Source of the DNA: an uncultured Mucispirillum sp.
GTDB taxonomy: Bacteria > Chrysiogenota > Deferribacteres > Deferribacterales > Mucispirillaceae
Assembly: GCA_944325215.1 (NCBI GenBank)
Contig: CALUZC010000006.1
Span: 1 to 64,000 of the forward strand
Reading direction: 5' to 3'
Length of the DNA: 64,000 bases
Shown: piece by piece, positions 46,547 through 60,724 of the stretch
Position numbering within the stretch: position 1 is the first letter of the stretch
Layout of the letters: every line of letters begins with the position of its first letter
Notes under the pieces: model-generated
What the model was told of the DNA's origin: nothing
Seen by the model: the letters and a program-made list of their open reading frames with translations, nothing else
Database searches by the model: none
Position numbers and translations under genes: made by a program

Positions 46547-46623
46547 AAGATAAGGTTGTGTAAGGAGATGCCGTTACACAATTAATTTTAATCCGTGCAA
46601 GACTACGATTAAAGCCTTATCTT
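46547..46623. repeat. Three-way-junction structured element at the portal stop
   Basis: A 9-bp outer stem AAGATAAGG / CCTTATCTT encloses two hairpins: TTGTGTAA / TTACACAA with loop GGAGATGCCG, and TTTAAT plus CGT / ACG plus ATTAAA. The portal stop codon lies in the outer stem, as with family 1. Only one copy is seen in the window. Confidence 0.7.
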
Positions 46624-48740
46624 TTCTTTTTGTCTGTTTTATAATATCCACTTACAAGCCAGCATTGTTTTTCCCCTTGCCAGTCTAATGAAACCAAACC
46701 TTTCTTATCATTTGTTTCTACAAATAACTTTTTAGGCAATTTCTCATTTTTATTTTTTGGCATATTCATATAACTTGCTCCATTTTTTAGCAATGGTATC
46801 AACTCATTCTTTACAAATTCATTACCGTCAAATCCATCTTGGTTTCGCCGTTTTATAATATGTGCTAACCCATAACCTTTACTTGTATTTGTTTTAATTG
46901 TCCCATAAGGTATATCTACACCATAACCTGCAACAGTTATCACATCAGGCACATAACCTTCTTTTTTATCAAGTAAAAAATTTATTGCAACTTGCCCTTT
47001 GCCAGAATATTTTGTATATGCTGTTCCCCATTCTTCTGGTCGGACTCTTTGCTCATTTTCTATGTCGCCACCACCAAGAAGCAATTCCCCGGTTTCTCTA
47101 TCTATTAAAACCCTTTTACCATTTTTTAATGTCCGCCATTCTGCACCTTCAATATAAACATCTATATCATCATCTTCTATATATTTTTGGTTATCCTGTT
47201 CAGCACGAAAACCGACATGTGCGGGTGTAGTGCTGTCTGCTCCGTCAGGGGAAAGGTGGAAAGGGGAGAAACGGGATTCTCCACTTTCCAGAGAGTCCAT
47301 CCACTGATTAAATATTTCCTGTTCCACTTCACTATTTTCTGGTATTTTATAATCTTCTAAATCTATCCAATCAAATTTAAAATTATCTTCACTAATTGCT
47401 CTTATTGCATCTTTTCCTGTAACAACTCCGCTCATTATAAGTTTTGAAATGTAGTCAGCTTTTAAATTATTTATCTCTACCTGCTCTTTTTGTTTAATCT
47501 GTTTTCTTGGGTTAAACTCATATTTTGGTTCATCTAATATTCCAGCTTTAAAGCATAATACATACTCTGCGGCTTTTTCCATAACAGGTATAACTACTGA
47601 TTTTGCATAACCATCTATTACATCATAAAAATTATTTTCATCATATTCCCCAGTAGCATTAAAGCCCCTTGGAGAAAGCCCTAATAATTTTGTTACAGGT
47701 ATGCCACGAGTTGAAGCTGTCATAAGCTCATACATTTGTGATAGTAGATTATCCATACCAGATAAACTTGTAACAGTTTCAATCCATTCTTCATCTTTGG
47801 CAAGTAATAGTGTAGCAAGGTTATTGCTTGTAGCATTCATATATTTTACTCTTGCCTGTGTTTGTGGGTCTGCTATTTTTTGGGCAGTAGTTTTAATAAT
47901 TTTTGTGCGAAATCTAAGTATTAAATCACTTATACTCTGACGGACAGTATCAGCATTAGATACATAGTTTTTCATATAAAAGGAAAGGGGAAGTCCTAAG
48001 TAATTATAAAGTGGTTTTATTAAATCAGGCACAGAATAAAATACTATTGGTATAAGCCTTGTTTTATGCACTGTAGTAGAAGCACCCAGCACCCACCATA
48101 AATCAGGCTGCATATAGTTATTTTTTAATGGATTAAATGTATTTACCTGCACAGGTGCTGCCTGCCATGGCTCAATTACAGTAAGCCCAGTAATTTTATT
48201 TTTTTTAGAAGTTTTTTCATTAATATATAGTGGCAGGCTTAAATTAGTATCATCAGTATTTATATAAATAAATGCTCCGCCATATTCTAATGCTCTCTGC
48301 ACTGCAAGTCGTATTTTATTATAAAAATCAAGAGAATTTAAAACCATTTCAAAATTTTCTATATCCAAATGAGCTGATATCCATTTTCCGCCACTTTTAA
48401 ATATCTCTCTTGTAATCACATCTATTGCCTTGCTTATCATGCTGTCAGTTGCTAAATTCGCACATTCTTGATAGCTTAATCTATTTAATATATGATGTGA
48501 GTATTGCTGCAGTGAATTATTTACACCAATAGAAGCAGCATAATTCTGCCAGCTTGAAAAATTTCTATAAGCAAGCCCTGCCACATCAGCTGGCATATTA
48601 TCAAATGTCCTAATCGGTGCAATATCTGATAAATTAATATTCCTGCTTTCATAAGCTCGGCTGTCAATATACTGCACTTTATCTATATTACTGTCTTCAA
48701 CTTTTATTTTTTCACTTCTAAATATATCTAATAGTCCCAT
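46617..48740 (-). CDS. Portal protein (DUF1073-like) with C-terminal nuclease-like domain
   Basis: 707 residues. Residues about 50-450 form the portal core (SMISKAIDVITREIFKSGGK, GGAFIYINTDDTNLSLPL, GYAKSVVIPVMEKAAEYVLC). Residues about 482-509 are an in-frame insertion of structured repeat F5. The last about 150 residues, with GYGLAHIIKRRNQDGFDGNE and QCWLVSGYYK, resemble the phage-fused Barnase/EndoU/ColicinE5/RelE-like (PBECR) nuclease domains often attached to portal or minor-head proteins. If active, it would enter the cell with the DNA or act on host RNA. Confidence 0.82.
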   Translation of the reverse strand: MGLLDIFRSEKIKVEDSNIDKVQYIDSRAYESRNINLSDIAPIRTFDNMPADVAGLAYRNFSSWQNYAASIGVNNSLQQYSHHILNRLSYQECANLATDSMISKAIDVITREIFKSGGKWISAHLDIENFEMVLNSLDFYNKIRLAVQRALEYGGAFIYINTDDTNLSLPLYINEKTSKKNKITGLTVIEPWQAAPVQVNTFNPLKNNYMQPDLWWVLGASTTVHKTRLIPIVFYSVPDLIKPLYNYLGLPLSFYMKNYVSNADTVRQSISDLILRFRTKIIKTTAQKIADPQTQARVKYMNATSNNLATLLLAKDEEWIETVTSLSGMDNLLSQMYELMTASTRGIPVTKLLGLSPRGFNATGEYDENNFYDVIDGYAKSVVIPVMEKAAEYVLCFKAGILDEPKYEFNPRKQIKQKEQVEINNLKADYISKLIMSGVVTGKDAIRAISEDNFKFDWIDLEDYKIPENSEVEQEIFNQWMDSLESGESRFSPFHLSPDGADSTTPAHVGFRAEQDNQKYIEDDDIDVYIEGAEWRTLKNGKRVLIDRETGELLLGGGDIENEQRVRPEEWGTAYTKYSGKGQVAINFLLDKKEGYVPDVITVAGYGVDIPYGTIKTNTSKGYGLAHIIKRRNQDGFDGNEFVKNELIPLLKNGASYMNMPKNKNEKLPKKLFVETNDKKGLVSLDWQGEKQCWLVSGYYKTDKKKR
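47213..47297. repeat. Structured repeat family 2, copy F5, in frame inside the portal gene
   Basis: CCGACATGTGCGGG (hairpin 1 core), a short second part, then GGAAAGGGGAGAA...TTCTCCACTTTCC (hairpin 3). It is translated in frame as SGESRFSPFHLSPDGADSTT, a segment unlike the rest of the protein. Confidence 0.75.
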
Positions 48741-52621: not shown

Positions 52622-52657
52622 TGTCATTCTGAGCCTGATTTATCAGGCGAAGAATCT
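52622..52657. repeat. CATTCTGA...GAAGAATCT palindromic repeat, copy H2
   Basis: TGTCATTCTGA, hairpin GCCTGA / TCAGGC, then GAAGAATCT. It fills the spacer between endolysin and spanin genes and touches the endolysin stop. Confidence 0.85.
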
Positions 52658-53039
52658 ACTCACTCTCTTTATCGCTGGCTAATTCAAAGTGAGGATAGTC
52701 AACTAAACCTTTAAAATTTTTACCCCATTTTATTTTGATACCCAGTTCTTCTGCTTTTGCCATAATTTTTTCACCTAGTTTTTCAAAAGCTGGTATATCT
52801 TCCCAGTTCAGTGGCAGCGGCACAACATCTACAGCTAAAGATGGTTTATGATTATGTTTAGACTGTCCCCAGCGAGCTTTACTTGCCCCACTATTATATG
52901 CTTTTTCCTGCTCTGCTTTACCTCTATGGCCACAAATTACGGCACATTTTTCCGTTTCTGCCACAGCTTCTATTAGTTTTATTAAATCACTATGGCAGGT
53001 GTTTAATTTGGTTTGACTTTTTGTAGATAATTTTGGCAT
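52656..53039 (-). CDS. Endolysin, peptidase M15 (L-Ala-D-Glu type)
   Basis: 127 residues. Zinc-site signatures: SKHNHKPSLAVDVVPLP (HxxxxxxxD) and DYPHFEL (final His). This fits M15 phage peptidases that cut the peptidoglycan stem peptide. It has no signal peptide, so release needs a holin. It is the first gene of the late arm, 47 bp after a late-promoter element. Confidence 0.92.
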   Translation of the reverse strand: MPKLSTKSQTKLNTCHSDLIKLIEAVAETEKCAVICGHRGKAEQEKAYNSGASKARWGQSKHNHKPSLAVDVVPLPLNWEDIPAFEKLGEKIMAKAEELGIKIKWGKNFKGLVDYPHFELASDKESE

Positions 53040-53123: not shown

Positions 53124-53306
53124 AGGGTAAAAAGAGACCCTGCCATAAAAGCAGGGCGTACCCTATTTATATTTCATAAGCATATAGTGCTTATATTATT
53201 TTTCCATTGTTATTCATATTTCTTTATTATATAACTTTTAAAATGATAAATTTTTATACATCATTTTAAATTTCTCTTTAATAATATACAGGGCGAAAGC
53301 CCTGTA
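53124..53306. terminator. Hairpins between endolysin and membrane-protein genes
   Basis: A nested hairpin AGGGTA / TACCCT with CCCTGC / GCAGGG (53,124-53,164), and a second TACAGGGC GAAA GCCCTGTA (53,287-53,306) directly after the stop of the gene at 53,308. They would end the repressor/membrane-protein transcript before the late arm. Confidence 0.7.
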
Positions 53307-53307
53307 A

Positions 53308-54573
53308 TTATTTATTATTAACATATTTGTATAAATTCATTATTTCTTGGTCTGTCCAATTACGATTTTTTAAAACATCTTCTATATCTCTATCATCTTC
53401 TATAATATTATCTTTTGGTGCTGTTCTATTAGGATATTTTTTATAAATAATACCAACTTCATCATAATCATTCACATCAATTTTTGGTGTATTAATAATA
53501 TCTTGAATTATACGGCATACATTTTTATAAGAATAGTAAGAAAATGGAAGTTGTGGAATAAATCCTTGTTTTTCATACTCAAACCCATAATTTTCGGCAA
53601 ATGTATTTGTATTCATATTTAATGCTTTTATACATTTATTGATACCCATGAATACATATTTAGGTATAACTACTAAGTCAATATCATCTATAAAAAGCAT
53701 TGCATAACTCTTATTGTTTAGACCACTAGCACAAATATAAGCTGCCAATGTATAACAAATCAAAGCTTTATCATACATATTATTTTTTTCAAAAAAATAT
53801 GCATAATTCATTACAGTATTTTCATATGTTTTATATTGTTTGGTTTGTAATAATTGATGCATTCTAATTTCATATAGTTTGCTCATTTTTATAAAAGCAT
53901 TTTCATTTTTATATTCTTTTTTAATAATACTTAATTCATTTTTACTAACATCAAAATTATCTTCAAAAGCCATAATTTCAAATTCATATTTATTTAATAA
54001 TTGTTGGGCTTTTACTGTTGGAAAATAATATATTCTTCGCACATACTGTCCTATATTTTCAGAACTTATTGTATTATATAAACTATCTACAATTTCACTT
54101 TTTTTTGTTCCTGTGTTTATATTATATTTTTTTGTAATTTCTTTTAACTCATCAACTTTATAATGCTCAAATGCTTCTGTATGTTCATTTATAATACCCT
54201 GTGATTGAAGTTTTTTTAATATAGATTTTATTGTATATTGGCTAGGTTCTTTATAACCATATTTTTTTGATAATCGTCCATAATATTGCCAGTATTTTTG
54301 ATTAATAATAAACTTCTTTTTTAATACATCATAAAAAGTATTTTTATCAGTCATCATTAAGATATCCATTATATTTTTTGGAATACCTTGCTTTTGCTCA
54401 TACTTACTTTTTCTAAACCACATAAAATACAATGGTAATATTCCTAACAAAAAGATAACCAATAAGCTAGATACAATATTATTATTTTCAAAAATAGCGG
54501 CTAAACCAGCTAAAATAATTATACTAGAAAATATTGTTATAATAATTTTTATAAGTTTTACTATAAAACTCAT
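53308..54573 (-). CDS. Membrane protein with SAP-like region (prophage cargo)
   Basis: 421 residues. Two N-terminal membrane helices (about 5-27 and 34-52), then a soluble part. Residues about 138-170 (YKVDELKEITKKYNINTGTK, KSEIVDSLYNTIS) resemble a SAP helix-extension-helix, and the rest is helical. I recognise no full-length family. It lies beside the repressor on the same strand and outside the lytic modules, so it may be expressed in the lysogen as cargo, for example in phage exclusion. This role is inferred from position only. Confidence 0.65.
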   Translation of the reverse strand: MSFIVKLIKIIITIFSSIIILAGLAAIFENNNIVSSLLVIFLLGILPLYFMWFRKSKYEQKQGIPKNIMDILMMTDKNTFYDVLKKKFIINQKYWQYYGRLSKKYGYKEPSQYTIKSILKKLQSQGIINEHTEAFEHYKVDELKEITKKYNINTGTKKSEIVDSLYNTISSENIGQYVRRIYYFPTVKAQQLLNKYEFEIMAFEDNFDVSKNELSIIKKEYKNENAFIKMSKLYEIRMHQLLQTKQYKTYENTVMNYAYFFEKNNMYDKALICYTLAAYICASGLNNKSYAMLFIDDIDLVVIPKYVFMGINKCIKALNMNTNTFAENYGFEYEKQGFIPQLPFSYYSYKNVCRIIQDIINTPKIDVNDYDEVGIIYKKYPNRTAPKDNIIEDDRDIEDVLKNRNWTDQEIMNLYKYVNNK

Positions 54574-54599
54574 ATTTTCTCTCCTTTTTCATATTATTT

Positions 54600-55292
54600 T
54601 TAATTTATTTCCCGCATAAATATGCCTTTAAGTCTGCCAATAATAGCACTATTATCATCTTTATCTAATATAATACTTGGGTATTTTGTATTATCACTGG
54701 TAAATATGCACATATTATTATTACAGTCATTGTACCTTTTTATATAAAGCTCATTATCTTTTCTTATTACATATATTTTATTCTTTTTAAGAGTATATTT
54801 ATCATTAGTATCTATTATTATTTTATCTTTATTAAGTATAGCTGGCTCCATACTATCCCCCGAAACAGCTAATATTACAAGCCCATAAGCATTTTTTATT
54901 AACTTTTTACTTACCTGCACCATTTCTGATACTTCCATACCCACAAATGCCCCAGTGCCAGCACTAGCCTTTATATCTAAATATGCAGGTATTTCTACAT
55001 AGTCATATTTGTCTTTTTCTTTTGGAAACGCCAGCAAATCTTTATCTGCATTAGATGCAGTGCTTTCTTTTTTATCATCAGAGAGAAACATACTGCCTTG
55101 ACCCGTGCGGAGCCAATTTGGATTAATATTATATTGCATTTCTATCAATTTTAAAGTTTTTTCTCCAATTTTTGCACCTTTTTCCCATTTTAAAAAAGCA
55201 ACATGGGAATACCCTAAATCTTTCATAAATTGCGATTTGTTCATACCTTTAACTTTAATAATTTCTTTTATTCTCTCAATTTCTGTGCTCAT
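54600..55292 (-). CDS. LexA/CI-like phage repressor (HTH plus S24 peptidase)
   Basis: 230 residues. N-terminal helix-turn-helix (MNKSQFMKDLGYSHVAFLKW), then the S24 domain: likely self-cleavage site ASAG (about 109-112) and catalytic Ser 147 in GDSMEP. This repressor type, unlike Mu c, is normally cleaved during the SOS response, so DNA damage should induce the prophage. It is divergent from ner across three 15-bp operators. Confidence 0.92.
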   Translation of the reverse strand: MSTEIERIKEIIKVKGMNKSQFMKDLGYSHVAFLKWEKGAKIGEKTLKLIEMQYNINPNWLRTGQGSMFLSDDKKESTASNADKDLLAFPKEKDKYDYVEIPAYLDIKASAGTGAFVGMEVSEMVQVSKKLIKNAYGLVILAVSGDSMEPAILNKDKIIIDTNDKYTLKKNKIYVIRKDNELYIKRYNDCNNNMCIFTSDNTKYPSIILDKDDNSAIIGRLKGIFMREIN

Positions 55293-55370
55293 TGTAACCT
55301 ACTTACATATTTTATATTAATAAAAATGTAATTTAGTTACAATTTCAGCTTGACATGTAACTAAGTTACA
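55293..55370. promoter_or_regulatory. Three phage operators and early promoter
   Basis: Three near-palindromic 15-mers: TGTAACCTACTTACA (55,293-55,307), TGTAATTTAGTTACA (55,327-55,341) and TGTAACTAAGTTACA (55,356-55,370), consensus TGTAAnTnAGTTACA. The early promoter TTGACA (55,350-55,355), 17 bp, TATATT (55,373-55,378) has the third operator as its spacer. On the minus strand TTGTAA, 17 bp, TAATAT overlaps operator 2 and could drive the repressor. Confidence 0.85.
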
Positions 55371-55489
55371 TATATATTATACTTATCAAGTTAATCATTT
55401 ATATATTTTTTAAATAATTAATAAATTTATTTAACTAGTTTAATAAGTTTATTGATTTTTGTAAACAAAAAAATATTTAGGAGGACACA

Positions 55490-55708
55490 ATGTCACAACA
55501 TCAAGACATTATGGTATTGCTCATCCACTTGGGTATTACCCAGAGAGACATCGCAAAAAAAGCAGGTGTAACGCCTGCGGCAGTCAGCTCTATAATTCAT
55601 GGTAGAGCTAGAAGTTATAATGTTGAAAAAATTATAACAGAACTTACTGGGTATCAATTCCCTGCATTTAAACAAGTTCCACGCACATTAAGTGCTGCAA
55701 ATAATTAA
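55490..55708 (+). CDS. Ner-like DNA-binding regulator
   Basis: 72 residues. The HTH LGITQRDIAKKAGVTPAAVS, then SIIHGRARSYNVEKII, is the Ner/Nlp pattern. It is the first gene of the early arm, with GGAGG upstream, about 110 bp after the early promoter. In Mu, Ner turns down early transcription and the repressor. Confidence 0.88.
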   Translation: MSQHQDIMVLLIHLGITQRDIAKKAGVTPAAVSSIIHGRARSYNVEKIITELTGYQFPAFKQVPRTLSAANN

Positions 55709-57780: not shown

Positions 57781-58932
57781 ATGAGTAAAAAAGAAATAAC
57801 AGCAGAAACTGAAAAGAATATTAAAATTAATTCTGTTGGAGCGGAGCCGAGCGTGTATCGGCACAGCGACACCTTACCGATGGGGGAAGATGGAAAGGGG
57901 GAAAGCGGAATTTCCCCCTTACAAGATAAAATTGATACTTTTAAGTTAGAAAGTGAAATGCAGGCAGCCACCAGTTTAGTAGAAGCAAACATGGCAGAAT
58001 TCCATGCAGAACAGCAGGAATTAAAAGTTAAACAACAGCAGGAAAGAGAAACGCTCATTGCAGAAGCAAGCAGGCTTACTGGCAGAGTGGAAGCGTTTAA
58101 TTTTATATCAAAACTCACGACCGTCGGGAGTTTGATGATTATTAAAAAAATAAAAGAAAGTGGTGTTTATAAAGAGCTTCCAAATATTAAAACTTGGGCT
58201 GATTACTGTAAAAGTATAGGTTTTTCAGTAAATAAGATAGATGAAGATTTATTAAATTTAAACACTTTTGGAGAAAATTTACTCACGACCGTCGGGGATT
58301 TTAGTTTAGGATATAAAGATTTAAGAGAGCTTCGTAAACAAGTCAAATCTGGCAGTTTAGAAATTAAAGATGCTGAAGTTATCATTGATGGTGAAGTAAT
58401 ACCATTAGATGATAAAGACGAGCTTCGTGATGCACTAGATACTCTTTTAAAATCTAAATATAAAAAAATAGAAGAATTAAAAGATGAAATCAAAAATAAA
58501 GAAAGCATTATTGAAGATAAAGAGCATGATATTAAACGTTTGCAGGCTTCCAATAACACATTTTTCAAAGAAAAAGAGCAGGCAGAGCGTGAGCTTAAGT
58601 ATTTAAAAGCAGAAGGCTCAATTAATGGTGTAGAGCTGGAAGATAATCCAGACTTTCAGGCTATTAAACAATGTGAAAATGAAAACAGCATTTTAATAGA
58701 ACGGCTTACAAGGCTTGCTGAAAAAGATTTATCAAAATTTAATAAATCTATGCTTGGCAGCACTGTTATTAAAATTATGAATGATATGCACAACCTGCAT
58801 CAAGAGTTATGCAGCCTTGGTATTTCTGATTACTTTGGTGATGCTTTTGTTGATGATGATGTTATTGATGCAGAAGATGCAGTCATTACGCCAAATATGT
58901 TTTTAAAACAACAAGGTAATGAATATGAATAA
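57781..58932 (+). CDS. Coiled-coil early protein carrying three inserted repeats
   Basis: 383 residues from the ATG at 57,781 (GGAGGG upstream). Residues about 60-100 and 220-285 are coiled coils, and a more globular part lies at 110-215 (KELPNIKTWADYCKSIGFSV). Residues about 20-48 come from structured repeat F6; two short palindromes (58,111-58,133 and 58,281-58,300) are read in frame as LTTVGS and LTTVGD. It overlaps the MuA gene. Its function is unknown; the position before MuA suggests a DNA-binding or partition-like role. Confidence 0.7.
   Translation: MSKKEITAETEKNIKINSVGAEPSVYRHSDTLPMGEDGKGESGISPLQDKIDTFKLESEMQAATSLVEANMAEFHAEQQELKVKQQQERETLIAEASRLTGRVEAFNFISKLTTVGSLMIIKKIKESGVYKELPNIKTWADYCKSIGFSVNKIDEDLLNLNTFGENLLTTVGDFSLGYKDLRELRKQVKSGSLEIKDAEVIIDGEVIPLDDKDELRDALDTLLKSKYKKIEELKDEIKNKESIIEDKEHDIKRLQASNNTFFKEKEQAERELKYLKAEGSINGVELEDNPDFQAIKQCENENSILIERLTRLAEKDLSKFNKSMLGSTVIKIMNDMHNLHQELCSLGISDYFGDAFVDDDVIDAEDAVITPNMFLKQQGNEYE
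57838..57925 (+). repeat. Structured repeat family 2, copy F6, in frame in a CDS
   Basis: GCCGA GCGTGTA TCGGC, then GACACCTTACCGATG, then GGGGGAAA GCGGAA TTTCCCCC. Same three-part order as the intergenic copies, translated in frame as GAEPSVYRHSDTLPMGEDGK. Confidence 0.78.
58111..58300 (+). repeat. Pair of short ACGACCGTCGG palindromes in a CDS
   Basis: AAACTCACGACCGTCGGGAG then TTT at 58,111-58,133 and ACTCACGACCGTCGGGGATT at 58,281-58,300. Shared core CTCACGACCGTCGGG. Both lie in the same reading frame and are GC-rich compared with surrounding sequence. Confidence 0.75.
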
Positions 58933-60724
58933 GTCAGAAATAAAAAACTATCTTGAAACTGCTGATAATATAAAAGAAGCCATGGAATATTTAGCTTTTA
59001 AACTGGGTGTATCTTATAAAAGAATGCAGTCCATAGCTCTTGATGCAGGCTTTAGAAGAAGACAGGAAAGGAGTAATAAAGGCGAAACTTCATGCCCTAC
59101 AGATGTTATTGATTTAATAGCTGCCCGTGTTCGTATTTCTATCAAAAAAGGGGCTAAAGATGCTTTTGATATTAATACTACCATAAAAAAAGAGTATGAA
59201 ACTTTAATTGAAGAAGGTGTTGATATACCTGTTAGCTACGAAAGAGTATGCACTCTTTTAAGAAACATGCAGCTTGATAGAAAGAGCCTTACAACTGCTA
59301 CTCCATTTGTGCGTTTGGATAGCCTGCATGTAAACCATGTACATTTGTTTGATATTACTAACTGCCTGCAATGGCACTTAGAAAAAGGGCATGGCATGAA
59401 TGAGGAAGACATATCTAAATGGTTATATCCTAATAAAGTATTGGAAGAAGCTCGTAAAAGAGATATGAAACCTAAACTATTAAGATATGTTATGATAGAC
59501 CATAAAAGCCGTGCTTTTTACTTTCAATATTTTTATACATCAGGCGAACGAGCTGAAAATGGTGCTGAGTTCTTTTATAACGCATGGGCAGATAAACGCC
59601 CTTTAATTGAAAAAACACTTGGCATTGCAGATTATGATGGCATGTATCAGTTTTCAGGCATACCAAAGATTATCTATACTGATGGCGGTCCAATTTTTAA
59701 AGATACTGCCATTAAAAACTTAATGGCAGCTCTTGGTATTGAAGTGCTTATCCATAAAACACATAATCCAAGGGCAAAAGGTATGGTTGAACGCCATATG
59801 AAAATCATAGGTGATAATTTTGAAAGCAATTTAAGACGCTTTAAAATTGAAACCTTAGAAGAATTAAATGCTTATGCTCTTGACTGGTGCATAAAGTTTA
59901 ATAATGAGAGAGAAGTGGCTAATACTAATAAAACTAGAAGCCAGCTGTGGCGAACTATTAAGCCTAATGAATATACACTACTCCCAGGGCTTGATATTTA
60001 TAACACTCTTATTTCCAAAGAAGATGAAACAAGAGTATTAAATGGCAACTGTGAATTTAGCTATAAGGGGCAAGACTATATTTGTGATAATCCAAATTTC
60101 GCAGGGCAAAAAGTAGTAATTAAAATACATTTATCAGATTTCCCAGCACTGCACCTACACTTTAATGGCACTGTTGAAAAAGCATATCCTTTCAGCCGTG
60201 ATGAATATGGCAGACCACAAATCGCCCGCACTGGCATTATCGGTGAAAAATATGCATGCCATATTGTAACAGATGCGGAAATTTTAAAAGAACATATTGA
60301 GCAGGTTGCAGAACGTGTTGATGGTGTAGTGTTTAAAGGGAATAATGATAAACGTATAGCTAAACCTACCCTAAATGCAGCAGCTAAACCAGCAGTGAAA
60401 ACTAAAAAAGAAACTGTAGCATATTTACAGCCACAAGGTGAAATAGTTAAAACAGAAAACCCATACAAACCTGTTACTAATGAACTAATTAGTAACAAAT
60501 CCCCTGAAGTGCTAAGCAGCAGCGATGACCATGCTCCATTGCTGCTGCCAGTATCTTCTGCAATCGGGATGTTGATTGCTGAGTATGGCTCAATATCACC
60601 AGTGCAAAATAAAAGATTAAAAGCCATGTTTAAAGATGGTGTGCCTAATAACCTATCTGCTACAGAGCTTTATAATATGATTAATGCCCCATATATGGAG
60701 GTGGATAATGAAAAACTCGCATAA
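58925..60724 (+). CDS. MuA-like DDE transposase
   Basis: About 599 residues; I prefer the second ATG (58,925), with AAGG 8 nt upstream. N-terminal DNA-binding helices, then an RNase H-fold core with DDE residues (numbered from 58,919): D145 in HLFDITN, D255 in IIYTDGGPIF and E291 in AKGMVERHMK. A beta-barrel and a C-terminal MuB-interaction region follow. It cuts and joins phage ends, both for integration and replicative transposition. It overlaps MuB by 17 bp. Confidence 0.93.
   Translation: MNKSEIKNYLETADNIKEAMEYLAFKLGVSYKRMQSIALDAGFRRRQERSNKGETSCPTDVIDLIAARVRISIKKGAKDAFDINTTIKKEYETLIEEGVDIPVSYERVCTLLRNMQLDRKSLTTATPFVRLDSLHVNHVHLFDITNCLQWHLEKGHGMNEEDISKWLYPNKVLEEARKRDMKPKLLRYVMIDHKSRAFYFQYFYTSGERAENGAEFFYNAWADKRPLIEKTLGIADYDGMYQFSGIPKIIYTDGGPIFKDTAIKNLMAALGIEVLIHKTHNPRAKGMVERHMKIIGDNFESNLRRFKIETLEELNAYALDWCIKFNNEREVANTNKTRSQLWRTIKPNEYTLLPGLDIYNTLISKEDETRVLNGNCEFSYKGQDYICDNPNFAGQKVVIKIHLSDFPALHLHFNGTVEKAYPFSRDEYGRPQIARTGIIGEKYACHIVTDAEILKEHIEQVAERVDGVVFKGNNDKRIAKPTLNAAAKPAVKTKKETVAYLQPQGEIVKTENPYKPVTNELISNKSPEVLSSSDDHAPLLLPVSSAIGMLIAEYGSISPVQNKRLKAMFKDGVPNNLSATELYNMINAPYMEVDNEKLA

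Follow-up and report, generated by a model that had tools for sequence, protein, structure and literature searches.

Three phage systems serve as precedents for the reading of the locus proposed here. TP-J34 carries the gene for Ltp in its lysogeny module and transcribes it as a prophage; Ltp keeps DNA from being injected (PMC3952083). SieA of P22 is an inner-membrane protein that blocks DNA injection (PMC10883804). Fc02, a transposable Pseudomonas phage, owes exclusion to an ORF that lies upstream of the repressor gene, apparently on the repressor transcript (PMC9936078). A reference point of another kind is FAN1, in which a DNA-binding SAP domain and a VRR nuclease module go together with a TPR region that serves dimerisation and contacts with other proteins (PMC12078616). 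All four descriptions are those of the available portions of the papers. Against this background we have examined a 421-residue protein encoded in a 64,000-nucleotide stretch of DNA (hereafter, the window; positions 1 to 64,000 of contig CALUZC010000006.1) from an uncultured Mucispirillum sp.

The original prediction had noted a 421-residue ORF following the repressor on the same strand, and we can confirm it: the gene occupies positions 53308-54573 of the minus strand (ATG at 54573, stop codon ending at 53308) and begins 26 nt behind the stop of the repressor gene (54600-55292, minus strand), which encodes a phage repressor with helix-turn-helix and S24 parts (Peptidase_S24, E 1.7e-20; phrog_4, E 1.4e-37). 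The gap contains a ribosome-binding site, AGGAGAG, at 54579-54585 (minus strand) ahead of the ATG. A hairpin scan found none between the two genes and strong hairpins only downstream, at 53287-53306 and, in a terminator-like form, at 53137-53157 (minus strand); the description of the gene as "bounded by strong hairpins" is thus borne out downstream and fails on the repressor side. The absence of a hairpin between the genes favours co-transcription, and the two look like one operon of which the repressor gene is the first member, in agreement with the lysogen-expressed position proposed earlier; read with the repressor, the 421-residue protein is probably made in the lysogen. The GC content of the gene is 22.4%, as compared to 31-36% in most of the flanking kilobases. 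The left border of this variable interval is an M15-type endolysin gene (52656-53039, minus strand; Pfam and PHROG scans). Three TGTAACTNAGTTACA-like palindromes (55293-55307, 55327-55341 and 55356-55370, with no strand assigned) lie between the repressor and the early genes, the last of them inside a promoter-like TTGACA-17-TATATT site that points towards the early genes (55350-55378, plus strand), and a small HTH protein is encoded in a Cro/Ner-like position (55490-55708, plus strand). Palindromes with three or fewer mismatches are not above chance in the window (6 found, 6.26 expected); the clustering of the three best within 78 nt is the sole point hinting at operators, and is suggestive. 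From its Mu-type transposase gene (58919-60724, plus strand; phrog_310, E 1.3e-43), the prophage is classed as transposable and Mu-like. Elsewhere in the window, a Phage_portal_3 portal protein (46617-48740) carries a PBECR1 nuclease-like domain fused at its C-terminus.

Transposase relatives in genomes of the phylum were found in eleven places, the window's own and ten others. Six of the ten fetched regions show the repressor and the genes beyond the interval, while L033, L034, L039 and L042 end before the lysis genes and were excluded from the slot count. One more locus (L064, G046:C1) was added through its 3' element, which brought the related prophages to seven and the number compared, with the window, to eight; this locus could be the part lacking from the prophage that has its transposase on G046:C157 (L033). 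The contents of the interval, which has a GC content of 24-27% in the related prophages, differ from one to the next: a 287-aa gene and small ORFs in G044; genes of 110, 329 and 129 aa in G043; of 145, 274 and 188 aa in G042; of 145, 236 and 146 aa, with small ORFs, in G046:C2; of 110, 274 and 190 aa in G046:C1; of 224, 189, 304 and 145 aa in the second prophage of the window's own genome (C14); and no ORF of at least 45 aa on that strand in G035. The gene next after the interval in G035 is not similar to the window's endolysin and, as read from its sequence, would be an amidase. That all seven related prophages have unrelated genes or none in this place marks the 421-aa gene as exchangeable cargo, and the earlier statement that it has no place in the Mu gene plan holds good. 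Thirteen other cargo proteins showed no resemblance to the 421-aa protein at E 1e-3; ten of them were scanned with Pfam, with none above the cut-off, and with PADLOC, which gave one weak match (ZorA, E 0.004, for a four-helix membrane gene of G042).

Nucleotide comparisons draw the limits of the exchange. DNA similarity between the window and its relatives mostly stops at about 53057, the endolysin start, resumes in some of them at 53163-53306, and is absent beyond 53306 until the early genes, except for 250 nt of the repressor gene in common with the C14 prophage. The stretch at 53163-53306 (minus strand) is a conserved structured non-coding element that begins 1 nt past the stop of the 421-aa gene and opens with the hairpin at 53287-53306. 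In five of the eight prophages, an element of this kind, ~144 nt long, ends a first slot that comprises one or two genes. It is of full length in the window, G042, G044 and G046:C1 (1, 8, 54 and 41 nt, respectively, from the stop of the first cargo gene) and of half length in G046:C2, where it lies 8 nt past the second cargo gene; searches of G043, G035 and C14 did not detect it. The other three full-length copies are 85-88% identical to that of the window, and the first hairpin, CAGGGCTTTCGCCCTG, is identical in all four aligned sequences. Taken with the second hairpin (181 nt in all), the element has a folding z of -5.7, and its region gave only one sub-threshold match in Rfam, on the opposite strand. 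A terminator array, a small RNA and a recombination border are all candidates for what it is. G046:C1 and G043 have the 110-aa first gene in common (98%) and differ in the genes that follow, and G046:C1 and G042 have the second pair in common (99% and 95% identical) and differ in their first genes; by this comparison, what precedes the element and what follows it reassort. In the second slot of two prophages (L037 6979-8317 and L064 1833-3177), the 274-aa gene overlaps a ~190-aa four-helix membrane gene, and the recurring pair is a candidate two-gene system. A separate observation concerns the C14 prophage (L040 5918-8554, G000:C14), in which the last of four unrecognised cargo genes has three hydrophobic segments. 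The slot in these Mu-like prophages is precisely defined, more than ten further unrecognised cargo genes occupy the same interval in the relatives of the window's prophage, and its contents can be read as candidate exclusion genes.

Homologues of the 421-aa protein were difficult to find. Direct searches returned no homologue in viral contigs or genome contigs, nothing by tblastn against phages and plasmids at E 0.01, nothing in NCBIfam, and one chance-level SAP match (E 0.82) among PDB sequences; the gene is present in a single copy in its own genome and had no match in the 49 other phylum genomes searched. The lead came from a fragment (aa 67-206), without a match among plasmids, that matched SAP-domain proteins from two Latilactobacillus phages at a sub-threshold level (E 1-2); these two proteins are 99% identical to each other where aligned. 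Further members were found in Streptococcus phage Javan617, Latilactobacillus phage TMW 1.46 P2, an Apilactobacillus plasmid, a Staphylococcus plasmid and three viral contigs (L013, L044 and L047), L047 being the weakest (tblastn E 2e-5 across 63 residues, with no SAP insert). Of five tblastn queries against 50,697 phage records, three returned the identical four records each and the other two returned three and two of these; searches seeded by single relatives gave only self-matches or nothing, and a genome-contig scan with profile A3 gave no relative. The Gram-positive family that emerges takes in plasmid and viral-contig members besides four phage records in which the protein bears the label "SAP domain protein" or hypothetical, and as far as we have found it is uncharacterised and has been known until now only under those labels. 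The literature searched, a coverage that leaves out most subscription papers, held no recognisable account of a winged-helix/SAP/TPR family; the word SAP is absent from a paper on Latilactobacillus sakei prophages (PMC9641780), and the subject of a SAP-related paper, in its available part, is an 84-aa capsid-region protein (PMC10221047).

Membership of the window protein in this family was assessed with profiles. Run against 49 phylum genomes, the window's own included, profile A4, made from six members (Gram-positive phage and plasmid proteins and one viral-contig protein) with the window protein excluded, gave E 4.1e-10 for the window protein (aa about 119-327) and, up to E 10, no further match except a SAP protein of G010. 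With L044 added (profile A11) the window protein scored E 2.7e-13, and among 20 genomes the G010 protein scored E 4.7e-11, with three more matches at E 0.05-0.8. L044 and the window protein also align by BLASTP (E 1e-10 in a single comparison, 24% identity), and the alignment extends over aa 4 to 252 and takes in the membrane hairpin. Most of the profile score is supplied by the winged-helix/SAP part. A profile of the C-terminal region left the window protein unreported with six sequences and gave E 5.1e-4 with seven; its dependence on P0012, a Photobacterium protein with a zinc ribbon and a similar C-terminal motif that serves as anchor for this profile only, and without which the window protein is not reported, counts against full-length homology. 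Masking of the SAP segment left the window protein in first place among 3001, but with a domain E of only 0.044. On account of this distribution of the score and the weak C-terminal and SAP-masked results, we regard the placement of the winged-helix/SAP half in the family as firm by sequence and that of the C-terminal half as likely. The statement that the family could not be recognised has been overtaken by the homologue search, which places the protein in a winged-helix/SAP/TPR-like family with most of its members in lysogeny modules. Homology to core lytic proteins was also looked for, and no PHROG matched below E 0.079, the one at that value being of unknown function; PHROG 10777, likewise of unknown function, matches four of the seven relatives scanned and does not match the window protein at E 1. 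Two further proteins deserve mention in their own right. The G010 protein (L002 1264-2139), from the same bacterial order, is a 291-aa SAP protein with one N-terminal hydrophobic segment (4-22), and is possibly a third membrane-anchored member. The Photobacterium protein (L017 3587-4357, on a replicon of Photobacterium sp. DA100) is zinc-ribbon-like, has no SAP domain and carries in its C-terminal part a similar AL..Y.EV..DLNGPNN motif; the domain with this motif may be widespread and unnamed.

The architecture of the window protein can be sketched from its own sequence and from the models of its relatives. The two N-terminal membrane helices seen earlier recur, by Kyte-Doolittle hydropathy scan only, as hydrophobic stretches at aa 10-28 (54490-54546) and aa 33-51 (54421-54477; these and the following features are all on the minus strand). 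Basic residues before helix 1 and after helix 2 suggest that both ends are cytoplasmic and that the helices form a hairpin anchor, in which case the approximately 366 residues past the hairpin would face the cytoplasm. The SAP-like segment is likewise matched by the Pfam SAP motif (PF02037) at aa 135-165 (54079-54171), with E 4.5e-4 and 20.2 bits in the protein scan, below the gathering cut-off of 23.9, and 24.2 bits in the genome scan, above it; Cdc6_C, a winged-helix family, matches weakly at aa 96-134 (E 0.012). Alignments and the fold modelled for the relative P0011 delimit a putative winged-helix region around the SAP motif (approximately aa 77-195; 53989-54345), and a low-confidence model delimits a TPR-like helical region (approximately aa 211-343; 53545-53943). 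Structure prediction, which the original prediction had proposed as a check, gave a mixed outcome: AlphaFold2 modelled the window protein poorly (mean pLDDT 52.7, with the SAP blocks at 76-83), and residues from about 195 to 346 of this model do superpose on TPR proteins (Z at most 8.9). The model of P0011 is better (mean pLDDT 64.1, SAP blocks mostly 88-91). Its SAP helices sit between short strands at 119-121 and 176-178, which would form the wing in a winged-helix fold with the SAP domain inserted; residues from about 52 to 197 superpose on SarX-type winged helices (Z 9.1, rmsd 3.5, 100 aligned) and those from about 203 to 368 on TPR proteins, with Z at most 9.8 in either case, and all of these Z values lie in a range common for helical folds. 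L047, as read from its sequence, appears to possess the winged helix and to lack the SAP insert. From these models we infer that the family build is a winged helix into whose wing a SAP domain is inserted, followed by TPR-like helices, and the relatives and low-confidence models suggest the same build behind the membrane hairpin of the window protein, with the winged helix and SAP as its DNA-binding modules. The hydropathy scan predicted two N-terminal helices in L044 as well (aa 11-29 and 33-51), none in P0001, P0002, P0004, P0005, P0010, P0011, P0012 and L047, and in P0009 only an internal hydrophobic segment (299-317), so that the predicted anchored form is a variant within the family.

The relatives outside this bacterial group were placed at nine loci, and at six of these, two of which involve near-identical genes, the relative follows a CI/HTH-type repressor gene of the same strand at a distance of at most three genes. 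One HExxH or M78/ImmA-like gene intervenes between the two in both Latilactobacillus curvatus phages (the neighbourhood of the second being read from its viral-contig copy, L007), in Javan617 and in L047; the ImmA-like label is a reading of the sequence, except for one gene annotated as Peptidase_M78. Two genes intervene in TMW 1.46 P2, and in the Apilactobacillus plasmid the relative is directly behind the repressor. The relative on the Staphylococcus (S. pettenkoferi) plasmid has a recombinase and IS257 upstream and no adjoining repressor in the stretch seen. In L013 (5725-9645), the relative, P0011, overlaps the start of qatA (E 6e-229) and lies directly before it and qatB (E 9.5e-80), again with no adjoining repressor in the stretch seen; upstream of it are genes that read as DNA methyltransferase-like and serine-recombinase-like. 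L044 (426 aa; IMGVR_UViG_3300002501_000015) stands alone opposite an antirepressor-like gene, with tRNAs nearby and no repressor ahead in the part seen. As judged from these neighbourhoods, the family sits mostly in lysogeny modules.

What such a protein might do is open to several readings. Superinfection exclusion, or a related anti-phage effect at the inner membrane, is in our analysis the most likely action, and one that we put forward tentatively as something less than probable. The gene would be swappable cargo between the repressor and the structured 3' element and, to judge from the layout, would be read with the repressor; its product would be an inner-membrane protein with about 366 residues inside the cytoplasm, in which the TPR-like helices, going by the relatives and the low-confidence models, would serve self- or partner binding; and the tethered module would bind foreign phage DNA, or the proteins that deliver phage DNA, at the inner membrane, and the infection would be stopped there, during DNA entry or shortly afterwards. 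The steps of location and architecture are supported, and the anti-phage step is one that we infer. Association of the family with defence is confined to the L013 relative upstream of qatA and qatB; PADLOC matched no family to the window protein at E 10 and, among six relatives, matched only P0009 (Cas2_IIIa, E 0.02). More doubtful is a narrower version, in which a tethered DNA clamp resembling the non-catalytic half of FAN1 captures entering phage DNA, as one of many swapped guards in a slot closed by an RNA-like element. The exclusion function proposed originally is plausible, and the DNA-binding domains also allow a regulatory role that had not been considered, which the position beside CI/ImmA genes in unrelated phages suits equally well. 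A lysogeny regulator would bind the operators or the repressor and tune maintenance or induction, with the anchor sensing envelope stress or the state of the host. The presence of DNA-binding modules, the 26-nt spacing from the repressor and the same-strand position downstream of CI/ImmA-type genes at six of the nine outside loci all speak for it, but related prophages of the same host group have unrelated genes or none in place of the gene, which indicates that the lysis-lysogeny switch needs no such gene; moreover, the S. pettenkoferi plasmid and L013 relatives have no adjoining repressor in the stretches seen and L044 is alone opposite its antirepressor-like gene. We consider such a role rather unlikely, though it is the chief alternative to exclusion.

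Also unlikely is some other form of lysogenic-conversion cargo, one that tethers DNA of the prophage or the chromosome to the membrane, or alters a host process, with no anti-phage role. A membrane anchor joined to DNA-binding domains would suit a tether, and the scanned slot contents of the related prophages have no recognisable defence function; against this, Pfam, PHROG, NCBIfam, PADLOC and PDB searches found no host-process domain in the window protein, and the patchy distribution of the family, on mobile elements where seen, fits tether and defence alike. The TPR matches include RapH, PlcR, NprR and the Rap of phage Phi3T, which would accord with a Rap/AimR-type, arbitrium-like peptide receptor made of HTH and TPR parts, but these matches tie with eukaryotic TPR proteins and are generic. 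When the small downstream ORFs were listed for the window and five relatives, those of the window on that strand proved to be of 28 and 13 codons, without evident signal-peptide character, and on the Apilactobacillus plasmid there was a single hydrophobic ORF of 34 aa, which bears the annotation holin-like toxin; we hold a peptide receptor to be very improbable. Least credible of all is a chance or decaying ORF, to which the low GC content (22.4%) might point, and which is refuted by 421 open codons, the strong ribosome-binding site and profile matches at E 4e-10 to 3e-13.

We return to exclusion at the inner membrane as the preferred reading and to the systems with which the locus was compared. 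The likeness to FAN1 would lie in the order of SAP and then TPR, on which the inferred family architecture and the P0011 model agree, and the 11 best PDB matches of that model in Foldseek are FAN1 chains (E 1.4e-3 to 0.05). The TM-scores of these matches are low (0.17-0.24 of the query), FAN1 ranks only 19 for the low-confidence window model and reaches only E 0.55 by PDB sequence, it is absent from the matches listed in the structural re-alignment of P0011, though it may be among the others, and, in a clear difference, a VRR-type nuclease family was not found in the window protein by Pfam at E 1 or below. We treat FAN1 as a resemblance in build, not as a case of membership. A scan of 49 phylum genomes for the FAN1 TPR family gave one weak match with an internal stop, which was dropped. 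Closer to the window protein is the Gram-positive family, which is like it in domain order, type of position and approximate length, whereas the hydropathy scan predicts no membrane helix at the N-terminus of its phage, plasmid and L013/L047 members; L044 is like it in having both the two N-terminal helices and the winged-helix/SAP region, and unlike it in having no repressor ahead in the part seen. A family hitherto labelled "SAP domain protein" or hypothetical gains an identity in this way, with at least two members (the window protein and L044) that have a predicted two-helix anchor. The exclusion proteins differ in other respects. Family scans (Pfam, PHROG, NCBIfam and PADLOC) matched no exclusion-protein family to the window protein. 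In the available portions of the papers, Ltp and SieA are not described as DNA-binding, unlike the predicted modules of the window protein, and a link to a nuclease-type domain is made only for Olg1 of Fc02, the gene of which lies upstream of the Fc02 repressor, where the window gene lies downstream of its own. If the anti-phage role is true, a DNA-binding domain at the face where DNA enters would represent a mode of exclusion not described in those portions of the exclusion papers cited. The likenesses, drawn from the same portions, are in placement and expression: Ltp, SieA and Olg1/Sie1 are all expressed by the prophage, as the position of the 421-aa gene behind its repressor suggests for its own product; Ltp and SieA act at the membrane; and the genes of Ltp and Olg1 lie in the lysogeny or repressor region.
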